NCBI GenBank assembly: GCA_027532905.1
Contig: JAPZUA010000002.1
Span: 682,001 to 746,000, forward strand
DNA from: Magnetospirillum sp.
GTDB taxonomy: Bacteria > Pseudomonadota > Alphaproteobacteria > CACIAM-22H2
Length of the DNA stretch: 64,000 nucleotides
Direction of reading: 5' to 3'
The notes under the pieces were generated by a model, which did not search any database, was not told the DNA's origin, and was given only the letters and a program-made list of their open reading frames with translations. Position numbers and translations under genes: made by a program. Below, piece by piece: positions 1 through 54,546 of the stretch; the first letter of the stretch is position 1, and each line of letters opens with the position of its first letter.

Positions 1-1240
1 GGCACGATCGATTTGGCTGCGGGCAACGACCGGCTCGTGCTGGCCGACGGCGCCAATTCGTTGACGGTCGCCAACGTCGAAACGATCGTCGGCGGTTCCG
101 GTGCGGATACGATCACGCTGAATGCCGCGCAAACGGCCGGCCTGGTGGCACTGGGTGCGGGTGCTGACCGTCTCGTGCTTTCAAACAGCGACAATTCGGT
201 CACCGCAACCGGCGTTGAGACGATCCTCGGCGGCACGGGTGCGGACCAAGTGGCGCTCGGCGAAGCGCAGGTCGGCGGTGCGATCAATCTTGGCGCCGGC
301 AACGACCGCCTCGTTCTGGCAGCGGGTACCGACAACAGCTTCACGATGAGCAATGTCGAAACGCTCGTCGCAAATGCCGGCAACGACACGATTACTTTGG
401 GTGCGGCTTATTCTTCCGGTTCCATCGACCTCGCGGGCGGCAACGACACGCTGGTGCTCGGCAATTTTGCGAACGCGCTGACGGTCGCCAATGCCGAGAC
501 GGTGTTGGGCGGCAGCGGTGCGGACAGCGTGACGCTGGCCGCTGGCTACCAGAACGGCCAATTCGTCGATCTTGGCATCGGCAACGACCGTCTCGCGCTT
601 GGCGACGGCGGCAATACGGTTACGGTCGCCAATACCGAGCGCGTGTCCGGCGGCATCGCGGCCGATACTGTCACGCTCGCCGCTGCGCAGACGCTCGGCG
701 CGATCGATCTTGGGGCGGGCAACGACCGGCTCGTGCTGGCGGCCGGCAACAACACGCTGACGGTCGCGAATGTCGAAACGCTCGTCGGCAACACGGGTGC
801 GGACACGATCGTGCTTGGTGCGGCACAGACGGTCGGCGCCGTCGATCTTGGTGCTGGCAGCGACCGGCTGGTTTTGGCGAACGCCGACAACGCGGTGACC
901 GCGACCGGCGTTGAGACGATCCTTGGCGGCACGGGTGCCGACCGGGTGACGCTGGGTGCAGCGCAAGTCGGCGGCGTGATCAATCTGGGTGCGGGCAACG
1001 ACACGCTGATCGTCGCGTCCGGTACCGACAACAGCTTCACGCTGGTCAATGTCGAGACTCTGGTCGCCGGTTCGGGTCGCGATGCGATCACGCTTGGTGC
1101 CGCGGTCACCAGCGGCGCCATCGATCTTGCCCAAGGCGGCGACACGCTCAATCTCGGTAATTTCGCCAATACGCTGACGGTCGCCAACGTCGAGACGTTG
1201 GTCGGCGGCTCCGGCAACGACAACGTCACGCTCGCGACGA
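1..1240 (+). repeat. First block of 46-residue (138-bp) repeats, 9 units
   Basis: Nine units are recognisable by their NVET/NAET/GVET cores. Units 1-4 resemble units 6-9 in order. For example, the TATGVETILGGTGAD segment occurs at about base 200 and again about 696 bp later. This gives a five-unit higher-order period on top of the 138-bp period. Two units carry an extra two residues (TDNSFT). Confidence 0.85.
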
Positions 1241-4200
1241 ACTACAATGTCGGCGCTGTTCCGTATGCGAGCGACCCTGCGTCGGTCGCACCGATGGCCG
1301 CGTCGTCTGCGTTGTCGGTGGCGCTCGGCGCGCCCACAGTCGCGAGCATGGGGACGAGCAGCGTCTCGATGACGTTCCTCGGGGGCTCGGCCGGCTACAA
1401 CAGCAGCTACGGCGTCTACACGATCGGCGCCGACGGTCTGCCGACGACCGGCAAGGTCGTGTGGGCCAATGTCAAGAACGCGAACGCGACTTCGACGCTT
1501 TCGGGCCTCGATCCCGCGACGACGGGCTTCTTCCTGATCCCCGACGGTGCGAGCCAAAACGGCAACCGCATCACAAACGGCGAGACGGTGCGCTTCGAGC
1601 GCAGTTCGCAGGGCGTGTGGACAGCGATCGACGCAGACGGCAATCGTTTCGCCGGGTCCGGCGGTGCGAACGTTATCTTCGACAAGCCCAACCTCAATCC
1701 CGGCAACCGCCGTCTTGAGTTCGACTGGAACCGTGAAACCGGCGACCAGAATTGGGAAGACATTGCGGTCGGCGGCGACGCCGACTTCAACGATGTCAAC
1801 GTGACGACGAGCTGGACGTCGAACAACAACGGCACCGTCAGCATTCCGCTCACCATTGCCGCCCCGGCACCCAATGCCGACGGTTCGCCCGCCGCAATCC
1901 AGGTTGCAGGTCTGCCGACCGGTTCGGTGCTGCGCGACGCGTCGGGCAATGCGATCGCGGCCGGCGTGAACGGCGTCTATTCGCTGAATTCGGCCCAGCT
2001 CACGGGCCTCACGATCGTGACGCCGCCAGGCTACAGCGGCCAAGTCTCGGTGAACGTGACCGCCACGGTCACCAACGCTTCAGGTGCGACTTCGACGACC
2101 GTTACGGGCGTGACACTCGCCGACGTGCGCAACGATGCGCCGGCCACACCCGGCGGCAGCGTCGCGTCGACGGTCAACGCGACGATCAACGGCCAACTTT
2201 CCGCTGCGGATGCCGACGGCGACCGGCTCATCTTCTCGATCGCGCAGAATGGTGCGCCTGCGCGCGGCACGCTTACGATCAATCCGGACGGCAGCTACAG
2301 CTACGTCCCGAACAACAACTACCAGGGGACCGACAGCTTCACCTATCGTGTGTCGGATGGGCGCGGCGGCGTTTCCACCGGTACCATCGCACTCGGCATC
2401 GGCGTGGCCCCGGCCAATGGCGGGTCGGGTACCAATCCCACGAGTGCGGCCTTGGCCACGACGGTCGTCGGCAGCACCGGCAACGACACGTATTTCATGG
2501 GTACATCGCAGGTTGGCGCCACGATTGATTTGGGTGCCGGCAGCGATCGCCTGGTGCTCGGCAATTTCGCCAATACGGTGACGGCCGGCAATGTCGAGAA
2601 TCTCGTCGGCGGCACGGCGGCCGACACAGTCACAGTATCGACCGCGATCGCAGGCGGCACGGTCGATCTGGGGGCAGGCAACGACCGCCTTGTCCTGTCG
2701 GCGACTGGCAACAGCGTGACGATCGCCAATGTCGAGACGCTGATCGGCGGTACCGGTGCGGATACGGTCACGTTCGCTGCGGTTCAAACGTCGGGTTCGA
2801 TCGATCTGGGTGCGGGCAACGATGCCGTGCAGCTGGTCTCGGGCGCCAACAACGTCACGCTGGCGAACGTCGAAACGGTCGTCGGCAGTGCCGCGGCCGA
2901 TGCGATTACGGTTACGGGTATCCAGAATTCTCAGCTCGATGGCGGGGCCGGCAACGACACGCTGGTGGCCGGCAGCGGCAACGACACGCTGGTCGGCGGT
3001 AGCGGTAGTGATCTCATGACCGGCGGTTCGGGCAACGACATGTTCGTCGTGCGTGCCGGTGCCGATACGATTTCCGACTTCGTCTCTGGCAGCGACCGCA
3101 TCGATCTGCGCGCTTTCTGGACCGTGAACTCGCTGGCCGATCTGGCAGCGCGCGCGACGGTCGTCGGCAACGACACGGTCATCGATTTCGGCGGCGGCAA
3201 TACGCTGACTTTGGCAGGTATTACGGCGCCGTTGTCGGCCACCGACGTGCTGCTCAGCGACGGGATATCGATCGAAGGCGGTCTCGGCAACGATCGCCTC
3301 GTGCTCGCCAACGGCGGCAATACGCTGACGGTGCTCAATTTCGAAACAATTGTCGGCGGCACGGGCAGCGACGACATCACGCTTGGCGCTGCCGGTGCGC
3401 GCCTGGTCGATCTCGGAGACGGCAGCGACCGTCTTGTGTTGGGCAACACCATTGCGACGACCGTCACGATCGCGAATGTCGAGACCGTAACGGGCTCGGT
3501 CGCGAGCGATCGCATCGTTCTGGCCGGAACTGCCGGCAACAATATCTCGGTCCTCGGCGATGCGGGTACGCTCGTCGGCTCGACCGGTGCCGATACGGTG
3601 GCTTTGGGCAATGCCCGCACCGGCGGTGTCGTCGATCTCGGTTTGGGCGGCGACAGGCTGGTTCTGGCCGAGGGCGGCAATACGCTGACCGTTGCCAATG
3701 CCGAGACCATTTCGGGTGCGAGCGGTGCGGATACGGTGCAGGTATCGACGGCGCTGAGCGCTGGCTTCGTCGATCTCGGCGGCGGCAACGACGCGCTCAC
3801 GCTCGGCAATTTCGCCAATACGCTGACAGTCGCGAACGTCGAAACGCTGGTTGGCGGCGGTGCGGCCGACATCGTGACGCTTGGCAACGCTACGGCCGCC
3901 GGCCTTACGGTCGATCTCGGCGGCGGGCGCGATGCGCTGACGCTGGCCGCAGGTGCAAACAATCTTACTGCCCTCAACGTCGAAACGGTAACCGGCGGTA
4001 GCGGTAACGACACGCTGGCGCTCGGCAGTGCCACGATCGCGGTGCGCGTCGATCTCGGCGACGGCAACGACGCGCTCGCACTTTCCTCAAGCATCAATAC
4101 GGTCACGATCCTCAATGTCGAAACCGTCCTCGGCGGCAGCGATATGGATACGGTCACGTTGGCCCTGGCCGCCACGGCGGGCTCGATCGATCTGGCGCAA

Positions 4201-7200
4201 GGTGCCGACCGGCTGGTCCTCGCCAACGTGAACAACACGCTCAATGTGAGCAATGTCGAAACAATCGTCGGCGGCAGCGCTGCCGACACGATCGTGCTCG
4301 GTGCGGCACTCACGGCGGGCCTCGTCAATCTGGGTACAGGCGCCGACCGCCTTACGCTTTCGGATGCGGGCGACAATAATCTAACCGTCAGCAACGTCGA
4401 AACGCTCGTCGGCGGCAGCGCCAACGATACGGCAACGCTCGGGGCCGCGCAGACTGCGGGCCTCGTCGATCTGGGCGCGGGCAACGACCGTCTGACGCTT
4501 GCCAATTTCGCGAACAGCGTAACGGTCTCGAACGTCGAAACGCTGATCGGCGGCACGGCGATCGACAATGTCGTGCTGACGACCACACTCGCCGCGGGCA
4601 GCCTCATCGATCTCGGCGGCGGGCGCGACGTGGTCACGCTCGCGACCGGCGGAAATGTCGCCACGCTCGCGAATGTCGAGGTCGTAACCGGTGCGGGCGG
4701 GGCGGATCTGATCACGCTGGCCCCCGGCGTGAACGGCGGCAGCGTCGATCTCGGCGGCGGCAACGACGCGCTGACGCTGGGCGGCATTTCGAACAGCGTG
4801 ACAGTCGCCAATGTCGAAGCGATCGCAGGCGGGACCGGCAACGATACGGTCACGCTGACGACGGCTTCCGTGGGCGCGCAGATCGATCTTGCTGCAGGCA
4901 ACGACCGCCTCAATCTCGGCAATTTCGCCAATACGGCGACCATCGCCAACGCCGAAACGATCATGGGCAATGCAGCGGCCGATACGGTCGTGCTGGCTGC
5001 GGCTGCGACGTCGGGCCTGGTCGATCTTGCTGCCGGCAGCGATGGGCTTTCGCTCGGCAATTTCGCCAACACGCTGACAGTAGCCAATGTCGAAACGCTT
5101 CTCGGCGGCGCTGCAGCCGATACGGTCACGCTGTCGGCAGCCTTAGTCGGCGGCTCGGTCGATCTTGGTGCGGGCAGCGACAGCCTCACGCTCGGCAACT
5201 TTGCAAACAACGTCACGCTCGCGAATATCGAGACCGTCATCGGCCGCGCTGCGGTCGATACCGTTGTGCTGACCACTGCCATGACCGGCGGTCTCGTCGA
5301 TTTGGGTGCGGGCAGCGACACGCTGATCCTGGCTAACGGAGCCAACGTGCTTTCGGTTGGCAACGTCGAAAACATCGTGGCCGGCACCGACGGCGACACG
5401 ATCGCGCTGACGACCGGCTTTGCCGGCGGCACCATCAATCTGGGGGCGGGCAACGACAGCCTCGCACTTGCCAACGCTGCCAACGTCGTGACCCTAGTCA
5501 ACGTTGAGTCGCTGACCGGCGGCTCGGCGAGCGACACCGTCACGCTCGCCACGAGCTTCACGCTCGGCGCAATCGATCTCGGGGCCGGCATCGATCGCCT
5601 CAATCTCGGCAATGCCGGCAATGCGCTAACGGCCTTGAATATCGAGACCGTCATGGGCGGTACCGGTAACGATACGCTGACGCTGGGGGCCGCGCAGACC
5701 GTCGGTCTTGTCGATCTCGGCGGCGGCAGCGATGTGCTCACACTCGGCAATTTCGACAACACGCTGACAGTCGGCAACGTGGAGACGCTCGTCGGCGGTG
5801 CTGCGGCCGACATGGTGACGCTGTCCACGCTTGCCGTCGGCACCACCGTCGATCTGGGTGCCGGCAACGACCGTCTCAATCTCGGAAATTTCGCGAACAC
5901 GCTCGCAATCGCCAACGCCGAAACCATCGTCGGCGGCGGGCTTGCCGATACGGTCGTGCTCACGACGACGCTCAATGCAGGCTCGGTCAATCTGGGTGTC
6001 GGCAACGACCGCCTCACGCTGGCCGACGGCGGCAACAGCCTTACCGTTTCGCTGGTCGAGACGCTCATCGGCGGCAGCGGCAACGACAGCGTTACGCTTG
6101 GCGCCGCGGCTGCGGGCGTGATCGTCGATCTGGGGGCCGGCACGGCCGATGCGCTGACGCTCGCGACGGCTGCAAACAACGTGACGGCCGTCAATGTCGA
6201 GATCCTCGTCGGCGGCGGCATGGCCGACACCGTCACGCTCGGCACGGCCTATGTCGGCGACGCAATCGATCTCGGGGCAGGGGCCGACCGTCTCAATCTC
6301 GGCAATTTCGCGAACACGGCAACCATCGCCAACGTCGAAACGGTGAGCGGCAACAGCGGTGCCGACACGGTGACGCTGGCGACAGCGCTGACCGCTGGGC
6401 TCGTCGATCTTGGTGCGGGCAGCGACGCGCTGATTCTCGGCAATTTCGACAACGCTCTTACGGTTGCCAATGTCGAAACGCTGGTCGGCGGCAGTGGCGC
6501 GGACAATGTGACGCTCGCCTCCGCGCAGAGCGGCAACACGGTCGATCTTGGGGCCGGCAACGACCGCCTTGTGCTGGGCGTATTCGCCAACAATCTCACG
6601 CTCACCAACGTCGAAAATGTTGTCGGCGGCGGTTTGGCCGATACGGTGACCCTGGCGATTTCCGTAAGCGACGTCGTGGTCTCTCTTGCCGCCGGCAACG
6701 ACACGCTTGTGCTCGCCAATGGCGGCAACAGCGTTACGGTCAACAGCGTGGAATCCGTCGTCGGTGGCAGCGACAACGATACGGTCGTGTTCACGACTGG
6801 CGGTGCGGCGATTTCCGTCGATTTGGGCGGCGGTACGGCCGATACGCTGGTTCTGTCCAATACGAGCAATACAGCGACCGCGTCCAACGTCGAATCGATC
6901 ATCGGCGGTACGGCGAACGACATCGTGGCGCTCGGCACAGCCTATGTCGGCAGCGGCATCGATCTGGGTGCGGGCACCGACCGCCTCAATCTCGGAAATT
7001 TCGACAACACCGCAACCGTGACGAATGCCGAAACGGTCATCGGCAATGCCGGGGCCGATACGCTCACGCTTGGCGGCGCGTTTACGGCGGGTATCGTCGA
7101 TCTGGCCGCCGGCAACGACGCGCTAATCCTCGCGGGCGCCGGCAATACGCTGACGGTTTCGAACGTTGAAACGCTGACCGGCGGCAGCATGGCCGACACG

Positions 7201-8661
7201 GTAACGTTCGCCTCGGCGCTTTCGAATGCGGCGATCGATCTCGGCGACGGCAACGATCGCCTGGTTCTTGCCAATACCGCGAACATCGTGACGGTGATCA
7301 ACGTCGAAAACATCGTCGGCGGGATCTCGGCCGATACGGTGGCGCTGGGTGCCGCGACGAGTTCGGCGACGTTCAATCTGGGGCTCGGCAACGACGTGCT
7401 GGTGCTCGCCAACGGCGCCAATCTCGTGACAGCCCTGAGCGTGGAAACCGTGCTGGGCGGTATTGGCGACGACACGGTTGTGCTCGGCGCTGGCCTTACG
7501 GCTGGCTTCATAGATCTCGGTGCTGGCACGGCAGACGCGGTGCAGCTTGCGAGCTTCGCCAACAGCGTGACGCTTGCGAATGTCGAAAACATCTTCGGCG
7601 GCACGCTCGCCGATACGGTCGTGCTCACGACGGCCTATATCGGTGCCGGCATCGATCTGGGCGCCGGGCAGGATCGTCTGACGCTCGCCAATTTTGACAA
7701 CACGGTCACGCTCGGGAATGTCGAAACGTTGGTCGGCGGTTCTGGCATCGACAACATCGCGCTGTCGGCGGCCCAGACCGGCGGTCTCGTCGATCTTGCC
7801 GGCGGCAACGACGTGCTTACGCTCGGCGGCTTTGCCAATACGCTGGCGGTCGCCAATGTCGAAAGTGTGGTCGGCGGCAGTCTCGCCGATACGGTCGTGC
7901 TCGCATCGGCCCAGTCGGGTTCGGTCGTCGATCTGGGTGCTGGCGAAGACCGCCTCACGCTGGGCAATTTCGCCAACACGCTGCAGGTCGGCAATGTCGA
8001 GACGATCGTCGGCGGCAATCTGGCCGATACGGTCACGCTGACGACGACCATGACGGCCGGCTCAGTCAATCTCGGCGTCGGGGCCGACATGCTGATTCTG
8101 GCCGACGGCGGCAACTCGGTGACGGTCGCCAACGTCGAAACGATCGTCGGCGGTACGGGCGACGACACGGTGACGCTGGGCTCGGCGCAGACTTCTGGGC
8201 TTGTCGATCTCGGGGACGGCAGCGACCGCCTGTTCCTGTCGGCGGCCGCGAATTCGATCACGGTCGCGAACATCGAAACGATCACGGGCGGTTCGGGCGT
8301 CGATACGATTACGATTTCGGGTACGCAAGGTGCCTCGGTCGATGGCGGCCTCGGCAACGACACGCTGATCGGCGGAGCCGGCAACGATACGCTTTCGGGC
8401 GGCGTGGGCAACGACGTGCTGCGCGGCAATCTCGGCAACGATGTGTTCGTCGTGTCGGGTGCCGACACGGTCGCCGATTTCACGTCGGGCAACGACCGCA
8501 TCGATCTGCAGTCCTACGCCACGATCAGCAATTTCGCCGACGTTTCGGCGCTGTCCACCGTGTCGGGCGGCAATCTCGTGATCAATCTCGGCGGCGGCAC
8601 CACGGTCACGCTGCTCGGCACGACGGCCATCGCGGCAAGCGACTTTATTTTCCACAGCTGA
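1..8661 (+). CDS. Giant RTX-like repeat protein, probable type I secreted adhesin (5' partial)
   Basis: The reading frame is open from base 1, so the start lies upstream; at least 2,886 residues are visible. The protein is Gly/Asp/Asn/Ala/Thr-rich, essentially Cys-free and very acidic. About 48 copies of a 46-residue unit make up most of it. Each unit carries two RTX-like half motifs, of the types LGAGNDRLVL and GGSGADTITL, joined by an NxLTVANVET segment. Between bases about 1,330 and 2,430 the array is broken by a DUF4114-like region and a cadherin-like domain. RTX nonapeptides and a serralysin-type C-terminal module occur twice, internally and at the end, which finishes in ASDFIFHS. From family knowledge, this layout fits a calcium-binding surface or released protein exported by a type I ABC system. 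No transporter genes are in the window. Its ligand is unknown. Confidence 0.85.
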   Translation, partial: GTIDLAAGNDRLVLADGANSLTVANVETIVGGSGADTITLNAAQTAGLVALGAGADRLVLSNSDNSVTATGVETILGGTGADQVALGEAQVGGAINLGAGNDRLVLAAGTDNSFTMSNVETLVANAGNDTITLGAAYSSGSIDLAGGNDTLVLGNFANALTVANAETVLGGSGADSVTLAAGYQNGQFVDLGIGNDRLALGDGGNTVTVANTERVSGGIAADTVTLAAAQTLGAIDLGAGNDRLVLAAGNNTLTVANVETLVGNTGADTIVLGAAQTVGAVDLGAGSDRLVLANADNAVTATGVETILGGTGADRVTLGAAQVGGVINLGAGNDTLIVASGTDNSFTLVNVETLVAGSGRDAITLGAAVTSGAIDLAQGGDTLNLGNFANTLTVANVETLVGGSGNDNVTLATNYNVGAVPYASDPASVAPMAASSALSVALGAPTVASMGTSSVSMTFLGGSAGYNSSYGVYTIGADGLPTTGKVVWANVKNANATSTLSGLDPATTGFFLIPDGASQNGNRITNGETVRFERSSQGVWTAIDADGNRFAGSGGANVIFDKPNLNPGNRRLEFDWNRETGDQNWEDIAVGGDADFNDVNVTTSWTSNNNGTVSIPLTIAAPAPNADGSPAAIQVAGLPTGSVLRDASGNAIAAGVNGVYSLNSAQLTGLTIVTPPGYSGQVSVNVTATVTNASGATSTTVTGVTLADVRNDAPATPGGSVASTVNATINGQLSAADADGDRLIFSIAQNGAPARGTLTINPDGSYSYVPNNNYQGTDSFTYRVSDGRGGVSTGTIALGIGVAPANGGSGTNPTSAALATTVVGSTGNDTYFMGTSQVGATIDLGAGSDRLVLGNFANTVTAGNVENLVGGTAADTVTVSTAIAGGTVDLGAGNDRLVLSATGNSVTIANVETLIGGTGADTVTFAAVQTSGSIDLGAGNDAVQLVSGANNVTLANVETVVGSAAADAITVTGIQNSQLDGGAGNDTLVAGSGNDTLVGGSGSDLMTGGSGNDMFVVRAGADTISDFVSGSDRIDLRAFWTVNSLADLAARATVVGNDTVIDFGGGNTLTLAGITAPLSATDVLLSDGISIEGGLGNDRLVLANGGNTLTVLNFETIVGGTGSDDITLGAAGARLVDLGDGSDRLVLGNTIATTVTIANVETVTGSVASDRIVLAGTAGNNISVLGDAGTLVGSTGADTVALGNARTGGVVDLGLGGDRLVLAEGGNTLTVANAETISGASGADTVQVSTALSAGFVDLGGGNDALTLGNFANTLTVANVETLVGGGAADIVTLGNATAAGLTVDLGGGRDALTLAAGANNLTALNVETVTGGSGNDTLALGSATIAVRVDLGDGNDALALSSSINTVTILNVETVLGGSDMDTVTLALAATAGSIDLAQGADRLVLANVNNTLNVSNVETIVGGSAADTIVLGAALTAGLVNLGTGADRLTLSDAGDNNLTVSNVETLVGGSANDTATLGAAQTAGLVDLGAGNDRLTLANFANSVTVSNVETLIGGTAIDNVVLTTTLAAGSLIDLGGGRDVVTLATGGNVATLANVEVVTGAGGADLITLAPGVNGGSVDLGGGNDALTLGGISNSVTVANVEAIAGGTGNDTVTLTTASVGAQIDLAAGNDRLNLGNFANTATIANAETIMGNAAADTVVLAAAATSGLVDLAAGSDGLSLGNFANTLTVANVETLLGGAAADTVTLSAALVGGSVDLGAGSDSLTLGNFANNVTLANIETVIGRAAVDTVVLTTAMTGGLVDLGAGSDTLILANGANVLSVGNVENIVAGTDGDTIALTTGFAGGTINLGAGNDSLALANAANVVTLVNVESLTGGSASDTVTLATSFTLGAIDLGAGIDRLNLGNAGNALTALNIETVMGGTGNDTLTLGAAQTVGLVDLGGGSDVLTLGNFDNTLTVGNVETLVGGAAADMVTLSTLAVGTTVDLGAGNDRLNLGNFANTLAIANAETIVGGGLADTVVLTTTLNAGSVNLGVGNDRLTLADGGNSLTVSLVETLIGGSGNDSVTLGAAAAGVIVDLGAGTADALTLATAANNVTAVNVEILVGGGMADTVTLGTAYVGDAIDLGAGADRLNLGNFANTATIANVETVSGNSGADTVTLATALTAGLVDLGAGSDALILGNFDNALTVANVETLVGGSGADNVTLASAQSGNTVDLGAGNDRLVLGVFANNLTLTNVENVVGGGLADTVTLAISVSDVVVSLAAGNDTLVLANGGNSVTVNSVESVVGGSDNDTVVFTTGGAAISVDLGGGTADTLVLSNTSNTATASNVESIIGGTANDIVALGTAYVGSGIDLGAGTDRLNLGNFDNTATVTNAETVIGNAGADTLTLGGAFTAGIVDLAAGNDALILAGAGNTLTVSNVETLTGGSMADTVTFASALSNAAIDLGDGNDRLVLANTANIVTVINVENIVGGISADTVALGAATSSATFNLGLGNDVLVLANGANLVTALSVETVLGGIGDDTVVLGAGLTAGFIDLGAGTADAVQLASFANSVTLANVENIFGGTLADTVVLTTAYIGAGIDLGAGQDRLTLANFDNTVTLGNVETLVGGSGIDNIALSAAQTGGLVDLAGGNDVLTLGGFANTLAVANVESVVGGSLADTVVLASAQSGSVVDLGAGEDRLTLGNFANTLQVGNVETIVGGNLADTVTLTTTMTAGSVNLGVGADMLILADGGNSVTVANVETIVGGTGDDTVTLGSAQTSGLVDLGDGSDRLFLSAAANSITVANIETITGGSGVDTITISGTQGASVDGGLGNDTLIGGAGNDTLSGGVGNDVLRGNLGNDVFVVSGADTVADFTSGNDRIDLQSYATISNFADVSALSTVSGGNLVINLGGGTTVTLLGTTAIAASDFIFHS
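1336..1840 (+). other. DUF4114-like domain inside the giant protein
   Basis: The encoded segment contains AGYNSSYGVYTIGADG, GFFLIPDGA, a stretch with FERSSQGVW, and NWEDIAVGGDADFNDV near the end. The paired GYNxxxGxY and WEDxxxGGDxDFND signatures are typical of DUF4114 domains in bacterial secreted repeat proteins; these acidic clusters are usually thought to bind calcium. It replaces the repeat array completely for about 500 bp. Confidence 0.7.
1850..2412 (+). other. Cadherin-like (VCBS / tandem-95 type) segment inside the giant protein
   Basis: The segment includes ADADGDRLIFSIAQNG, then GTLTINPDGSYSYVPN, then YQGTDSFTYRVSDGRGG. This is the standard signature of the Ig-like cadherin-type repeats common in large adhesins. 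An Ig-like stretch of lower similarity precedes it, with LPTGSVLRDASGNAI followed by VTPPGYSG. Such domains usually act as spacers or adhesive modules. Confidence 0.7.
2461..2930 (+). repeat. Second block of 46-residue repeats, 3 units
   Basis: Three units (cores NVENLVGG, NVETLIGG, NVETVVGS) follow the cadherin-like segment and lead into canonical RTX nonapeptides. They have the same periodicity and half-motif pattern as the other blocks. Confidence 0.8.
2941..3268 (+). other. Internal RTX nonapeptides plus C-terminal-type secretion module
   Basis: GGAGNDTLVAGSGNDTLVGG and two further nonapeptides are followed by NDMFVVRAGADTISDF, SGSDRIDLRAF and NTLTLAGI. The order and spacing match the module that ends the protein at base 8661. 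In RTX families this module normally sits at the C-terminus, where the type I secretion signal is. Here the frame continues for another 5.4 kb. Confidence 0.7.
3268..8335 (+). repeat. Main block of 46-residue (138-bp) repeats, about 37 units
   Basis: The block is near-continuous, with cores such as NVETLVGG, NAETIMGN, NVENIVAG and NIETVMGG every 138 bp. The half motif LGAGNDRL or a variant lies about 23 residues from the GGxGADTVTL half motif, so each unit looks like two 23-residue half turns. One unit near base 3,540 has lost its NVET core. Several units have GNAAADT in place of GGSGADT. Confidence 0.85.
8341..8661 (+). other. Terminal RTX nonapeptides and C-terminal secretion module
   Basis: GGLGNDTLIGGAGNDTLSGG and further nonapeptides are followed by GNDVFVVSGADTVADF, SGNDRIDLQSY, VINLGGGTTVTLLG and the final ASDFIFHS. 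This resembles the M10 serralysin C-terminal/RTX module. A C-terminal uncleaved signal of this kind is the known route into type I secretion. Confidence 0.7.
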
Positions 8662-8740
8662 TCTCGGCGTCGGTTGCGCGCATCGCGTCGCTCGCGTAGC
8701 GTTTGCGCGTTCGAACGACGCGCAAGAGGGATTCGCCACG

Positions 8741-9523
8741 ATGGCTCCCGGAGACGGGCACGGCACGGCTGCAGCGGATATTTCGGTGTTGCTGGCGCTC
8801 TATGCGCAAGGGCGATTCGCCGACGTTGCGGCAGGTGCCGCAAGCTTGGTCGAAAAGCGGTCGAGCGATGCGTTTGCCTGGAAGATCCTCGGCACCGCCC
8901 AGCAGCAGCTCGGGCAAACGCAAGCGGCGCGCGCGGCCCTTTCGCGCGCCTGCGCGCTCGATCCGGCGGACCGCGAGGCGCACAACAATCTGGCCGCCTT
9001 GCTGCGCGATATGGGGGCGCTAGCCGAGGCCGAAACGCATGCCCGCCAAGCCTTGGCGCTTGATCCGAACGCGGTGCCCACCGTGCTCAATCTCGGCCTT
9101 ATCTTGGCCGGTCAAGGCCGCTACGGCGAAGCGCTTGGCTATCTGAACGATGCGCATGCAAGCCTGCCGGGCGACATCTTGACGGCTTTCAATCTCGGTC
9201 TCTGCCATCGCGGCTTGGGCGCGTATGCGGCGGCGATCCAATGTTTCCGGCAAGCTTTGGCCGCGAACCCGAAGTTCGCGGCGGCCCATCTCAATTTGGG
9301 CGCGAGCCTGCTTGATGTGGGCGATGCGGCTGCGGCCGAGGCGAGCCTCCGTGCGGGCCTTGCCCTTGCGCCGAATTCTACCGAAGGCATGGCGACATTA
9401 GGGTCGGCGCTAATGGTTTTGGGCCAGCTGCGCGAAGGCATGACGATGCTGGCCGACGGCTACGGCCTTGTCCGTTTCGACAGATATGCGGGCGTTTCGC
9501 TCTATGAAGGCGTTCCCCCGTGA
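8741..9523 (+). CDS. Tetratricopeptide-repeat protein
   Basis: 260 residues, almost entirely TPR helices: at least five repeats are visible from about residue 35 to 235, each with the A-x-L-x-x-A-L-x-L-x-P pattern, for example AETHARQALALDPNAV and AIQCFRQALAANPKFA. There is no signal peptide or membrane segment, so a cytoplasmic scaffold is likely. It starts 79 bp after the giant repeat gene and its stop overlaps the GTG start of the next gene by 4 bp, so it is translationally coupled to the 2OG oxygenase. From family knowledge, TPR modules are often fused or paired with this oxygenase class as substrate-recognition partners. A role in modifying the upstream secreted protein is only inference. 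Confidence 0.8.
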   Translation: MAPGDGHGTAAADISVLLALYAQGRFADVAAGAASLVEKRSSDAFAWKILGTAQQQLGQTQAARAALSRACALDPADREAHNNLAALLRDMGALAEAETHARQALALDPNAVPTVLNLGLILAGQGRYGEALGYLNDAHASLPGDILTAFNLGLCHRGLGAYAAAIQCFRQALAANPKFAAAHLNLGASLLDVGDAAAAEASLRAGLALAPNSTEGMATLGSALMVLGQLREGMTMLADGYGLVRFDRYAGVSLYEGVPP

Positions 9524-10140
9524 AGCGGCTTGAATTGAACGAAGCCGGAGTGGCTCCCAATTTCATCGGCGCTTGGTCGCTTGAGCCCGATCCGATCTGC
9601 GGCGAACTTGTCGCGTTTTTCGAGGCCAATGCGAGCCGCCATCGCAGCGGGGCGATCGGGGGCGGCATTCTGCCCGACAGCAAAAAATCGATGGATCTCA
9701 CGATCCGGCCGCGCGATCTGGCGCGGCCAGACCATGCGCCAATGCGGCGCTATTTCGATCTGCTGTTCGGCTGCTACGCCGACTATCTCGCGCAATGGCC
9801 GTTTCTGGGCGAGTTGTTCCCCAGCGTCGCGATCGGCAGCTTCAACATCCAGCGCTATCTGCCGGGCGAGCATTTCGCGCGCGTGCATTGCGAGCGCACG
9901 ACACTGGCCTCGCTGCATCGTTCGCTTGCGTGGATGACGTATCTCAACGATGTTGCCGACGGCGGCGCGACGCGTTTCACGCATTACGGGCTTGCCGTGC
10001 AACCGCGCCGGGGTCAGACGCTGATCTGGCCCGCCGACTGGACGCATGCCCACGCCGGCGAGGTTCTGGGGAGCGGCGTCAAATATGTCGTGACAGGCTG
10101 GATGCATTTGGACATACCGACGGGCACAACGCCTCCATAA
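9520..10140 (+). CDS. 2-oxoglutarate/Fe(II)-dependent oxygenase (prolyl-hydroxylase-like)
   Basis: 206 residues. The iron-binding facial triad can be read as His and Glu in the VHCERTT segment plus the distal His in WTHAHAG; the 2-oxoglutarate-anchoring basic residue is probably Lys in GVKYVVTGWMHL. The segments YLNDVADGGATRFTHYG and RRGQTLIWPADWTH match a family of small stand-alone hydroxylases also found in phages and cyanobacteria, in which HxE replaces HxD. The GTG start overlaps the TPR gene stop (GTGA). The likely role is hydroxylation of a protein or small-molecule side chain in the cytoplasm. The substrate is unknown. Confidence 0.8.
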   Translation: MKRLELNEAGVAPNFIGAWSLEPDPICGELVAFFEANASRHRSGAIGGGILPDSKKSMDLTIRPRDLARPDHAPMRRYFDLLFGCYADYLAQWPFLGELFPSVAIGSFNIQRYLPGEHFARVHCERTTLASLHRSLAWMTYLNDVADGGATRFTHYGLAVQPRRGQTLIWPADWTHAHAGEVLGSGVKYVVTGWMHLDIPTGTTPP

Positions 10141-10151
10141 GGATTCCAGGA

Positions 10152-11183
10152 ATGACCAAGATATTGCAGACGACCGTCGCCGGGAGCTTGCCCAAGCCCG
10201 CCTGGCTTGCCGCCCCGCAGATGCTGTGGGCGCCATGGCGCCAGACCGGTGCCGTGCTGGCCGAAGCGCAGTGCGACGCGACGATGCTCGCGGTGCGCCT
10301 GCAACTCGGCGCCGGCATCGACATTCCGAGCGACGGCGAGCAGGCGCGCCAGCATTTCGTGCACGGGTTCCTGGCCGGGCTCGACGGCATCGATTTCGAA
10401 AACAAAGTCACGATGGGGATTCGCAACAACCGTTACGATGCCCAAGTGCCGCAGGTGATCGGTGCTCTGAAGCGCAAGCATTCGGTGCACGCGGCTGAAG
10501 CCAAAGCCGCGCGCGCAGCGACGACGGGCAAGATCAAATTCACGCTGCCGGGGCCGATGACGATCGTCGACACGATTGCCGACCGTTTCTACGGCGACCG
10601 CGTGAAGATGGCGATGGCTTTTGCCGAACTCTTGAATGAGGAAGCAAAGGAACTTGCGGCTCTGGGCATCGACACGATTCAGTTCGACGAACCGGCCTTC
10701 AACGTGTTTACCGACGAAGTGCTCGATTGGGGCATTCCGGCCTTGCTGCGCGCAGCCGAAGGTCTTACCTGCACGACCGCCGTGCATGTATGCTACGGCT
10801 ACGGCATCAAGGCCAACAACGATTGGAAAAAGACCTTGGGCGAGGAATGGCGCCAGTACGAGCGTATCTTCCCCGAGCTTGCCCGCAGCCCGATCAATCA
10901 GGTGAGCCTCGAGGTCGCGAACTCGCGCGTACCTATCGAGTTCATCGGCCTGCTTAAAGGCAAAGACGTGCTGGTCGGTTGCATCGACGTGGCGAGCGAT
11001 ACGGCCGAAACGCCGGAAGCGGTCGCCGCTACGATCCGACGTGCCATGGCCTATGTGGCGCCCGAACGGCTGTTTCCGTGCACGAATTGCGGCATGGCGC
11101 CGATGGCGCGCGATCTGGCGTATGCCAAGCTCGCTGCCTTGAGTGCTGGGGCCGCTTTGATGCGCAGCGAGATCGGCGCATGA
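10152..11183 (+). CDS. Core cobalamin-independent methionine synthase (MetE C-terminal domain type)
   Basis: 343 residues, matching the short single-domain (core MetE) form rather than the approximately 750-residue two-domain MetE. It starts TTVAGSLPKPAWL, as these enzymes do. The zinc-site elements VHVCYGYG (His-x-Cys) and FPCTNCGMAP (Cys) and the acidic IDTIQFDEPAF segment are present. It should transfer a methyl group to homocysteine; the methyl donor in core enzymes may be a corrinoid protein rather than methyl-folate. The ATG is preceded by AGGAATG-type purines. Its stop overlaps the next start (ATGA), so it is coupled to the SDR gene. Confidence 0.85.
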   Translation: MTKILQTTVAGSLPKPAWLAAPQMLWAPWRQTGAVLAEAQCDATMLAVRLQLGAGIDIPSDGEQARQHFVHGFLAGLDGIDFENKVTMGIRNNRYDAQVPQVIGALKRKHSVHAAEAKAARAATTGKIKFTLPGPMTIVDTIADRFYGDRVKMAMAFAELLNEEAKELAALGIDTIQFDEPAFNVFTDEVLDWGIPALLRAAEGLTCTTAVHVCYGYGIKANNDWKKTLGEEWRQYERIFPELARSPINQVSLEVANSRVPIEFIGLLKGKDVLVGCIDVASDTAETPEAVAATIRRAMAYVAPERLFPCTNCGMAPMARDLAYAKLAALSAGAALMRSEIGA

Positions 11184-11956
11184 TTGCCACCGGAAAGGCG
11201 CTGTTCGATCTCGCGGGCAAGACGGCGCTCGTGACCGGATCCTCGCGCGGGCTCGGCTTTGCCATGGCCCAGGGTTTGGCAGAGGCGGGCGCGCGCGTCG
11301 TGCTCAACGGTGTGTCGGCCGGGCATTTGGCCGCTGCACAGGCGCGCTTAAGTGCCGCCGGCTACGACGCGATCGCGGCGCGTTTCGACGTGACCGACGA
11401 GGCTGGCGTGGTCGCGGCGTTCGAGGGTTTCGATCGTGACGGCATTGCGGTCGATATCCTCATCAATAATGCCGGTATCAACATCCGGCGGCCGATCGTC
11501 GAGATGTCGACGGCCGATTGGCGGCGGATCATCGAGACCAACCTCACGGCCGCCTTCGTCGTCGGACGCGAGGCAGCCAAGCGCATGCTGCCGCGCAAAT
11601 CCGGAAAGATCGTCAATATCGGTTCGTTGTTGAGTTCGGCCGGGCGCGCGACGGTTGCCCCCTATGCGGCGGCCAAAGGCGGCATCAAACTTCTCACGCA
11701 GACTATGGCCGCCGAATGGGCGCAGCATGGGCTGCAGGCCAACGCGATCGGCCCGGGCTATATGCGCACCGACCTCAACCAGCCGCTGATGGACGATCCT
11801 GCGTTCGACGCTTGGGTCAAAGCACGCACGCCCGCACGCCGATGGGGCGAACCGCGCGAGCTGGTCGGGGCTGCTGTTTTTCTCTCCTCAGCCGCATCGG
11901 ATTTCGTGAATGGCCAGATCCTTTATGTGGATGGTGGGTTGCTCGCGGTCATGTGA
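11180..11956 (+). CDS. Short-chain dehydrogenase/reductase (gluconate 5-dehydrogenase-like)
   Basis: 258 residues, classical SDR. It has the cofactor motif TGSSRGLG near residue 18, NNAG, the catalytic Ser in NIGSLLSSAG, the YAAAKGG (YxxxK) motif, and the C-terminal GQILYVDGG. Closest in style to IdnO/gluconate 5-dehydrogenase or 3-ketoacyl-ACP reductase-like enzymes; the substrate cannot be read from sequence. The cofactor loop has no clear acidic residue, so NADP is possible. Coupled by ATGA overlap to the MetE-like gene, although no obvious pathway links them. Confidence 0.85.
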   Translation: MIATGKALFDLAGKTALVTGSSRGLGFAMAQGLAEAGARVVLNGVSAGHLAAAQARLSAAGYDAIAARFDVTDEAGVVAAFEGFDRDGIAVDILINNAGINIRRPIVEMSTADWRRIIETNLTAAFVVGREAAKRMLPRKSGKIVNIGSLLSSAGRATVAPYAAAKGGIKLLTQTMAAEWAQHGLQANAIGPGYMRTDLNQPLMDDPAFDAWVKARTPARRWGEPRELVGAAVFLSSAASDFVNGQILYVDGGLLAVM

Positions 11957-51850: not shown

Positions 51851-52717
51851 ATGTTTGCGATCATTGGCTTGCTGCTGGTGCTGTTTTGCGTGTTCGGCGG
51901 CTACATCATCGCCGGCGGCAAAATCGGCATCATCCTGAAAGCGCTGCCGTTCGAGTTCCTGATCATCGGCGGTTCGGCGGCGGGCTCGTTCCTCGTCGGC
52001 AATTCCGGCAGCGTCATCAGCCACGCGATCAAGGATTTCGGCCGCGTCTTCAGCGGCCCCAAATACAAGCGCGAAGACTATATCGATCTTTTGTGCCTGA
52101 TCTTCACGATCCTGAAGCTCGCGCGCTCGAAGGGCACGCTCGCGGTCGAACCGCACATCGAGAAGCCGGACGAGTCCAATATCTTCATGGCCTATCCGAA
52201 GGTGCTGGCCAACAAATACGCGATCCTGCTGATCTGCGACCATATGCGCATGCTCTCCATGGGCGTGGAAGACGCGCACCAGCTCGAAGAAATCTTCAAC
52301 AAAGAGCTCGAGAAGCACCATCACGAAGTGATGCGCGGCTCGAGCGCACTTTCGACCACGGCCGATGCGTGCCCGGCACTCGGCATCGTCGCCGCCGTCA
52401 TGGGCGTCATCAAGACCATGTCGTCGATCGACCAGCCGCCGATCGTGCTGGGCGGCCTGATCGGTTCGGCCCTCGTCGGCACGTTCTTGGGCGTGTTGCT
52501 GTCCTACGGGATTTTGGGGCCGATGGCCGGCCGCTTGAAGCAGGTCTACGAGGACGAGTTCAAATTCTACGAGATCATCCGCGACACGTTCGTGGCCCAT
52601 CTCCAGGGCAACGCGCCGCAGATCTCGACCGAGATCGGCCGCAAGAGCGTGCCCTCTGAACTGCAGCCGACCTTCTACGAACTCGAAGAGGCGATCGCCT
52701 CCAAGCCTGCCGCGTGA
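51851..52717 (+). CDS. motA: Flagellar motor stator protein MotA
   Basis: 288 residues, start ATG 51,851 with GGAGGG immediately before. N-terminal MFAIIGLLLVLFCVFGGYII; EAHQLEEIFNKELEKHHHEV-like region and the conserved PALGIVAAVMGVIKTM of the stator transmembrane helices follow. A large cytoplasmic loop contains the charged residues that touch FliG. motB, usually next, is not here; instead a glycosyltransferase-like gene overlaps its stop (GTGA). Other flagellar genes are absent from the window. Confidence 0.92.
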   Translation: MFAIIGLLLVLFCVFGGYIIAGGKIGIILKALPFEFLIIGGSAAGSFLVGNSGSVISHAIKDFGRVFSGPKYKREDYIDLLCLIFTILKLARSKGTLAVEPHIEKPDESNIFMAYPKVLANKYAILLICDHMRMLSMGVEDAHQLEEIFNKELEKHHHEVMRGSSALSTTADACPALGIVAAVMGVIKTMSSIDQPPIVLGGLIGSALVGTFLGVLLSYGILGPMAGRLKQVYEDEFKFYEIIRDTFVAHLQGNAPQISTEIGRKSVPSELQPTFYELEEAIASKPAA

Positions 52718-54546
52718 GTGCAAAGCTGGCGGCCCTGGCGCAAGCCGGGGCCTGGGACGAGGCGCTGCGTCTGGCGCGCTCGCTCGACGCGGATCCCGCG
52801 AATGAAGCCGACGGCCAGGTCCAATTCGGCTGCGCACAAGTTTTTCTCGCCATGGACGACAAGGTGCGTGCGGCCGTTTGTGCTGCGCGCGCCGTCGCCT
52901 TGCTGCCGGGGCAGGCGGGCCCTTTGATGGTGCGCGCGAGGCTGCATGCGGCCTCGGGCAATGCCGATGCCTCCTTGGCCGATCTGGCCGCCGCCGCCCG
53001 CATCGCCCCCGCCAATGCCGACATACGCGCCCTGCAGGTCGAAATCCTGCACCGCCGCGACCGCTACGCCGAAGCCGCCCGCATCCTCGACGACGCGGCG
53101 GCCGCAGGGGCATCGTCGCCGGCTTTGTTCCATTTCCGCTCGGTGACCGACCTTGCCTTCGGCGACATCACGAAGGCCGAGATTGCCGCGCGCCAAGCGC
53201 TCGTGAGCGCCGCCGATCCGGCGGCCGCACAGCGCTGGCTCGGCACGGTGCTGCTGCAAGACGGCCGCGTGGTCGAGGCGCGCGCGGCTTTTGCCGCCGC
53301 CATCGCCGCCAATCCCAACGACGAGCAGGCCTGGACCGACGATCTGTTTGCGGCCAATTACGATCCCACGCTCGATGAAGCGGCCCTCAAAGCCTGCTAC
53401 GTCGCGTGGGGGCAGCGCTTCGTGCCGGTGCGCGCGGCAAAGCTCGCAGCACCGGCGCTCGGCGGTCGGCGCCTGCGCGTGGGCTACGTGTCGCAGGATC
53501 TGCGGCTGCACTCGATCCGCCATTTCCTGAGCCCCGTCGTTCCGCACCACGACCGCGCGAAGGTCGAGACCTTTGCTTATGCCTCGGTCGCGCGCCCCGA
53601 TGCAGGCACGGCCGCACTGCGCCCGCTGTTCGAAAACTGGCGCGATGCTTCAGCACTCGACGATGCGGCGCTGCTCGATGCAATCCGCCGCGACGGCATC
53701 GACGTGCTCGTCGATCTTGCGGGCCACACGGCGGCCACGCGTTTGAAACTGTTTGCGCGGCGTGCCGCACCCGTGCAGGTCACATGGCTCGGCTATGGCG
53801 GTACGACGGGCGTGCCGGAGATGGACTATTATCTCGGCGATGCGCAGATGCTGCCGCCCGGTGCCGAAGCTGCACTCACCGAGAAACCCTGGCGCTTGCC
53901 GCGCGCGTGCTTCGCCTACGACCCGCCGACGGACATGCCCGATCCCGGGCCGCTGCCCGCACTGGCCGCAGGCTACGTCAAGTTTGCGAGCTTTTCGCGC
54001 CTCGTGCGTCTCAACGACGATGTGATCGCCGCATGGGCGCGCATCCTTGGCGCCGTGCCGAAATCGCGCCTGTTCCTGAACGCTTTGGCTTTCGTCGATG
54101 CGGGTGCGGTTGCGCGCATGCAAGCACGCTTTGCCAAGTATGGGATCGCACCCGAACGCCTTGAACTGCGCTACACGCGCCCACAACCCAAAACGTGGGA
54201 TGCGTATCGAACCGTCGATATAGCCCTCGACCCGTTCGCGCATAATGGCGGCGTCACCAGCTTCGAAGCCTTGTGGATGGGCGCACCTTTGGTGAGTTTG
54301 CGTGCTCGTCCGCCTTTGGGCCGCTATGGCGATTGCCTTCTGTCGGCCCTCAACCTCGCCGACTGGTGCACCGACACCCTGGACGCATATGTCGCCCGCG
54401 CAATTGCCGCTGCACACGATCTCGACAGGCTGGCGGCCTTGCGCGAAGGCATGCGCATCCGCATGCGTGCGAGCGCACTTTGCGACGGCCCCGGCCTCGC
54501 CGCCGCTATGGACGCGGCGTTCAGGGAAATGCGCGAAGCGGCTTAA
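52714..54546 (+). CDS. TPR plus O-GlcNAc-transferase-like glycosyltransferase (GT41)
   Basis: 610 residues, GTG start overlapping motA. N-terminal TPR-like helices (about 1-220) precede a SPINDLY/OGT catalytic region: [19 protein letters not shown], then [19 protein letters not shown] and [20 protein letters not shown], ending [20 protein letters not shown]. The family transfers sugars from UDP- or NDP-donors to Ser/Thr of proteins. By coupling to motA it may glycosylate flagellar or surface proteins, but that is inference. The stop overlaps glcB's by 4 bp (TTAA). Confidence 0.9.

Follow-up and report, generated by a model that had tools for sequence, protein, structure and literature searches.

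The locus raises two nested questions: whether a TPR protein and a small 2OG-Fe(II) oxygenase encoded by overlapping genes act together as one enzyme, and whether the giant repeat protein encoded immediately upstream is what they act upon. The original prediction answered both positively, proposing that the pair hydroxylates Asp/Asn or other side chains in the repeats before export and constitutes a new system of adhesin modification. The analysis presented here supports this idea in part: the pair itself is a wider discovery than was stated, and its link to the adhesin is a weaker one. A search of the literature for TPR-oxygenase modification of adhesins, or for hydroxylation of bacterial surface giants, found none, and to our knowledge the latter is undescribed.

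Gene Arrangement and Conservation

Reading of the ORFs in the window (the whole analyzed stretch of 64,000 nucleotides of Magnetospirillum sp. DNA) places all genes of interest on the forward (+) strand. The 3' part of the giant ORF with 46-residue repeats (positions 1–8661), our candidate substrate, ends with a stop at 8661 and is followed, after an intergenic stretch of 79 bp (8662–8740), by the gene of the TPR protein P0001 (260 aa, approximately seven TPRs; 8741–9523, ATG start) and then by the gene of the oxygenase P0002 (206 aa; 9520–10140, GTG start). The two latter genes are separate ORFs in different frames, which have the bases GTGA (9520–9523) in common; both this overlap and the 79-bp gap had been predicted with exact coordinates. 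The order of TPR gene and oxygenase gene is kept 3' of the orthologous giant in two genomes of the genus (G002 and G004) and, thus, is not a product of chance, while in G003 the contig end falls inside the oxygenase gene. Both genes are under purifying selection, with dN/dS ratios (G000 vs. G002) of 0.084/0.512 = 0.16 for the TPR gene and 0.041/0.387 = 0.11 for the oxygenase gene. The presence of the pair in only four of the 11 analyzed genomes of the genus could be taken to mean that it is a relic or a neutral passenger, transferred in and devoid of a present role. Nevertheless, this reading is already disfavored by the purifying selection (dN/dS of about 0.11–0.16), as well as by intact catalytic residues and the conserved gene order, and we consider it very improbable.

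Some neighboring features were evaluated and set aside. The 79-bp intergenic stretch has a strong predicted fold, which was rejected as a terminator, having no T-run and a sequence that is not conserved among G000, G002, G003, and G004. A MetE-like methionine synthase gene (10152–11183, +; NF006589, 547 bits) is unspecific, as in G002 and G004 it is located 3' of the pair but in G006 and G008 elsewhere, and is probably outside the system. In the window it is followed by a short-chain dehydrogenase gene (10152–11956 for both), and this order behind the pair is also kept in G002 and G004. An apparent TPR-oxygenase fusion in G002 (461 aa) is an open frame only, since separate TPR and oxygenase ORFs are present there too.

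Predicted Structures and Known Analogs

P0001 is a TPR protein, as originally proposed, by sequence profile (Pfam TPR_2, 91.6 bits, five stretches) as well as by the superhelical fold of its AlphaFold2 model (pLDDT 94). The modeled superhelix ends with a beta-hairpin coinciding exactly with a conserved C-terminal tail (residues 242–255; 9464–9505, +), which carries the motif G-x-[IV]-x-F...G and is conserved in the partners of P0002-type oxygenases. This tail may dock P0001, the proposed substrate-binding subunit, onto the oxygenase, and it provides a direct handle on partner recognition.

P0002, the proposed catalytic subunit, is a member of the 2OG-Fe(II) oxygenase superfamily with a predicted fold of the P4H/PHD type. 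Its sole Pfam match at E-values up to 0.1 is PF13640 (2OG-FeII_Oxy_3; 43.8 bits with a cut-off of 27), and the AspH-type oxygenase domain profile is not matched. The AlphaFold2 model (pLDDT 90, from an alignment of 58 sequences) is a double-stranded beta-helix. The structure that it matches best is that of the P. putida prolyl hydroxylase (PHD, or PPHD), an EF-Tu hydroxylase, in its complex with EF-Tu (Z 20.0 over 182 residues). This enzyme is likewise bacterial and small, although it shares only 16% identity with P0002 and its solved complex is with EF-Tu, no TPR partner being named. Further matches include Trichoplax PHD (Z 19.8), an algal P4H (19.3), a viral collagen P4H (18.7), and PHD2 (Foldseek/structure comparison). 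Most of the matched proteins are protein hydroxylases, PolD being one exception by name. The model and the alignment together predict an H-x-[DE]...H triad and a basic 2OG-binding residue, namely the metal motif H123-C124-E125 (9886–9894, +) and, by alignment to bacterial P4H, the distal His178 and the 2OG-binding Lys188, 10 residues apart (10051–10083, +); H123, E125, H178, and K188 are invariant in the 58 sequences. In all 58 the metal motif is H-x-E and not the H-x-D of P4H and PHD, and with Glu instead of Asp as the metal carboxylate P0002 is not classified here as a prolyl hydroxylase. The fold agrees with the earlier description of a small prolyl-hydroxylase-like Fe(II)/2OG enzyme, but likeness of fold to hydroxylases does not establish the substrate.

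A TPR unit combined with an oxygenase is familiar from eukaryotes, where collagen P4H and AspH, in which the TPR part presents the substrate, are the nearest analogs in function. In collagen P4H, a TPR-type peptide-substrate-binding domain accompanies the P4H catalytic domain, and the substrates are repeat proteins. The collagen P4H alpha chain resembles our pair in that a P4H fold is combined with a substrate-binding TPR unit; it differs in having both within one chain (with PDI as a partner), an H-x-D motif, and a proline substrate, whereas here we find two overlapping genes, H-x-E, and neighboring repeats free of proline. Human AspH also joins a TPR unit with a 2OG oxygenase and acts on repeated extracellular modules, and while its oxygenase domain alone turns over 2OG, hydroxylation of the EGF substrate needs the TPR domain (PMC6817910). 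However, AspH is a single chain, located in the ER, and belongs to another oxygenase family with two protein Fe ligands, as opposed to the H-x-E...H triad and P4H-type fold predicted for P0002. In Caulobacter, the TPR domain of FlmG binds flagellins and thereby captures, still within the cytosol, an exported protein that is to be modified (PMC7591256), although FlmG is a single-chain glycosyltransferase with a flagellin substrate rather than an oxygenase.

Distribution and Phylogeny of the TPR-Oxygenase Pair

Most bacterial P4H-fold oxygenases lack an assigned function. A scan of 84,980 species genomes with the oxygenase alignment yielded 243 confirmed relatives of P0002, of which the best 80 were used. 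The TPR protein and the oxygenase constitute an ancient, near-obligate, and widespread bacterial pair: among these best 80 of 243, a TPR gene with the tail G-x-[ILVAF]-x-F abuts the oxygenase gene in 66 of the 77 bacterial loci with upstream sequence, and the most common spacing (21/66) is −4, as in the window. The TPR gene is the only near-universal neighbor across the 80 loci, in which TonB-dependent receptors recur mainly in gammaproteobacteria. In the gammaproteobacterial locus L069 (10790–15827), genes of a TonB-dependent receptor and of a tryptophan halogenase (PF04820, 443.6 bits) are located 3' of the pair, and the gammaproteobacterial loci L089, L090, and L098 are similar. In the phylogenetic analysis, a single clade (100/100) unites the 56 cellular rows; it is TPR-partnered with few exceptions and stands apart from the viral rows as well as from two TPR-less members of the family. 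The cyanophage and pelagiphage 2OG-Fe(II) oxygenases (PHROG 61) belong to the sequence family of P0002 (about 40% identity or less) but lie outside the cellular clade; in none of the 80 viral loci does a TPR gene lie within 5 kb of the homolog (0/80), and a TPR-oxygenase fusion is likewise absent from them.

From the clade-wide pairing and the tail modeled as a hairpin, we infer an enzyme of two subunits, and these observations, taken together with the fold matches to protein hydroxylases and the precedents of AspH and FlmG, indicate that the pair is quite likely a TPR-guided, two-subunit protein hydroxylase. In the proposed mechanism, P0001 would hold the polypeptide substrate, its C-terminal beta-hairpin would dock the small P4H-fold oxygenase, and P0002, with Fe(II), O2, and 2-oxoglutarate at H123/E125/H178/K188, would oxidize side chains. 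Through the pairing, a so far anonymous family of oxygenases that is widespread among marine bacteria becomes a testable two-subunit enzyme. One could also envision an oxygenase acting on a small molecule or on a surface glycan or lipid, with the TPR protein serving as a scaffold amid envelope-biosynthetic enzymes; this would agree with the TPR-glycosyltransferase, TPR-sulfotransferase, and TPR-methyltransferase genes that surround the pair in Prochlorococcus and in marine alphaproteobacteria, and with PolD, by name not a protein hydroxylase, among the fold matches. We consider it rather improbable given that the structural neighbors are overwhelmingly protein hydroxylases and that the TPR domains of AspH, C-P4H, and FlmG bind protein substrates.

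The Neighboring Giant as a Candidate Substrate

The frame of the giant runs upstream past the window start to about −779 (~780 bp), which would give ~3,146 aa with a TTG start. Sixty repeat copies were matched by a model derived from the units of the giant itself, and in 30 of 45 intervals the repeats are spaced 46 residues apart. According to Pfam, the giant contains calcium-binding RTX nonapeptides (PF00353, 60.5 bits) and Big_9, with a weak match to DUF4114; the RTX and Big_9 matches suggest that it may be secreted and may function as an adhesin. No type I exporter was recognized beside it, either in the stretch L207 inspected by eye or among ten window ORFs scanned with profiles. Homologs of the repeat on plasmids, all below 60% identity, were found in 15 records, of which 13 are from Azospirillum.

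Composition of the giant limits the chemistry that can be considered. Proline is absent from its 37 regular repeat units, and the entire protein contains 0.9% Pro and 0.1% Lys; therefore, prolyl hydroxylation of the repeats is excluded, and lysyl hydroxylation is as good as excluded. Giants adjoining other TPR enzymes are equally proline-poor. The repeat features invariant Asn, Asp, and Glu columns, and if the repeats are the target, Asn/Asp or another non-proline residue would be required, which makes Asn/Asp hydroxylation a candidate reaction.

The originally suggested check of genomic co-occurrence of the pair with 46-repeat proteins came out in favor within the genus but not beyond it. Among the 11 genomes of the genus, the oxygenase is confined to G000, G002, G003, and G004, as are the 46-repeat proteins (4/4 vs. 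0/7); the seven others (L141–L151) have different giants, DUF4114-like or cadherin/Big_9-like, without 46-residue repeats. One event in the evolution of a single subclade may account for this co-occurrence. Beyond the genus, three genomes with 46-repeat giants (G286, G150, and G124) lack the oxygenase, and no other oxygenase-bearing alphaproteobacteria were found among the genomes with a 46-repeat protein. Within the best 80 of 243 relatives, a 46-repeat giant is located nearby in two (L035 and L036), both from the genus of the window, and most relatives, especially in gammaproteobacteria, have no giant within 10 kb of the pair. In the genome of the organism itself, at least four more large 46-repeat ORFs (C2:526–538k, C2:998–1005k, C2:1201–1208k, and C1:536–542k) are not accompanied by the pair.

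These data bring up a serious alternative, to which we ascribe a substantial but clearly less than even probability: a two-subunit protein hydroxylase whose substrate is encoded elsewhere and which is located 3' of the giant only incidentally. Such a substrate could be a translation factor (e.g., EF-Tu, as with P. putida PHD), a receptor of the outer membrane, or a different secreted protein. This alternative is consistent with the P. putida PHD-EF-Tu complex as the best structural match, with the proline-free repeats, and with the pairs of Pelagibacter and several Alphaproteobacteria, which have no giant or exporter nearby. Many gammaproteobacterial loci continue with a TonB-dependent receptor, and some with a tryptophan halogenase, instead of a giant; however, TonB receptors are probably abundant in those genomes, and their adjacency may be due to chance. 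Moreover, a patchy distribution would be odd for a housekeeping substrate, and in other lineages the pair adjoins type I export or RTX genes.

Linkage to RTX Proteins, Exporters, and Other TPR Enzymes

The pair is linked to a complete type I exporter in two marine genomes. In G263, genes for outer-membrane efflux (OEP), a type I-like ABC transporter, and HlyD begin 430 bp downstream of it in the same orientation, and a 2086-aa RTX protein is encoded on the contig as well; a contig of G071 combines the pair with an OEP/ABC/HlyD exporter and with several enzymes of the TPR-2OG_5 type. In L340/L344, L343/L027, and L095, the pair has an RTX protein and/or a type I exporter in its vicinity, L095 having a 1743-aa RTX protein at a distance of ~3 kb and a TPR-methyltransferase beside the pair. 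In L073, a DUF4214 subtilase is encoded 138 bp upstream of the pair. An RTX protein, a type I exporter, and the pair share one contig of a 1.4-Mb genome (L344:873–7133 and L340:4497–10277), and with a gap of ~430 bp an operon of the pair and the exporter in L340 is not established.

Several 46-repeat giants without the pair have other TPR enzymes as neighbors. TPR-GT9 genes are located before giant 3 of the own genome and near the giants of G150 and G681, three TPR-GT41 genes come after a giant of G286, and a radical-SAM-TPR-GT41 fusion lies two genes from giant 4 of the own genome (L333:7796–10750; ortholog L341:4513–7416 in G004). Overall, TPR genes, mostly TPR-GT9/TPR-GT41, are present within two genes of approximately 5 of the 13–14 distinct 46-repeat giants (orthologs counted once), as called by profile-guided gene prediction in GC-rich loci. 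The rough expectation per giant is 1–2% (~19 TPR loci in 4.26 Mb), and the binomial tail (n = 13) of 1e-7 to 4e-6 serves as a guide only, as it assumes independence and uses the rate of one genome for loci that were not chosen blind.

The case for the giant as a substrate draws on the co-occurrence within the genus (4/4 vs. 0/7), the linkages in G263, G071, and L095, and the TPR genes near other giants. It is weakened by the lack of proline in the repeats and the scarcity of lysine in the giant, Pro and Lys being the main targets of the enzymes closest in structure, as well as by the absence of a nearby giant for most pairs and by the giants of the own genome without a pair. With a linkage that is repeated but confined to a minority of loci, and with repeats that fit the relatives of the enzyme poorly, we give modest weight to the giant as the substrate of the pair, somewhat under an even chance. 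The explanation that we prefer, with a probability approaching but not reaching one half, is that of a cytosolic two-subunit protein hydroxylase, for which the neighboring giant, prior to its export, is the likeliest single substrate in this lineage. The giant would then be hydroxylated on Asn/Asp or another non-proline residue of the repeats, or in its few non-repeat domains. Of the original proposal that a TPR-hydroxylase pair modifies the repeats of the giant, the near-obligate pair with its AspH and collagen P4H analogs and its RTX/exporter linkage elsewhere stands, as does the co-occurrence within the genus; the missing co-occurrence beyond the genus, the giants of the own genome without a pair, and the proline-free repeats count against the rest. 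Should the giant prove to be the substrate, this would represent a prokaryotic parallel to the hydroxylation of EGF modules and collagen.

A broader view, which we find conceivable but unlikely, is a general bacterial tailoring of giant repeat proteins, in which TPR adaptors would bring varied cytosolic enzymes (the two-gene oxygenase, TPR-GT9, TPR-GT41, radical-SAM-TPR-GT41, TPR-methyltransferase, and TPR-2OG_5) to the unfolded chain before type I export. If true, such a system would yield hydroxylated or glycosylated repeats and be a bacterial counterpart of AspH and collagen P4H.

Other TPR enzymes were also observed in different settings. The window itself has a TPR-GT41 gene (52714–54546; PF13844, 136.7 bits) with no giant nearby. 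In Prochlorococcus single-cell genomes (L092, L096, L099, and L101), the pair is located amid TPR-GT41, TPR-sulfotransferase, and TPR-methyltransferase genes, in clusters that also hold a TPR protein whose end resembles that of the TPR-GT9 proteins. Ahead of a second 46-repeat giant, of 2414 aa (L198; G000:C2:1180000–1208137), TPR-GT9 and methyltransferase-TPR-GT9 genes are arrayed in tandem.
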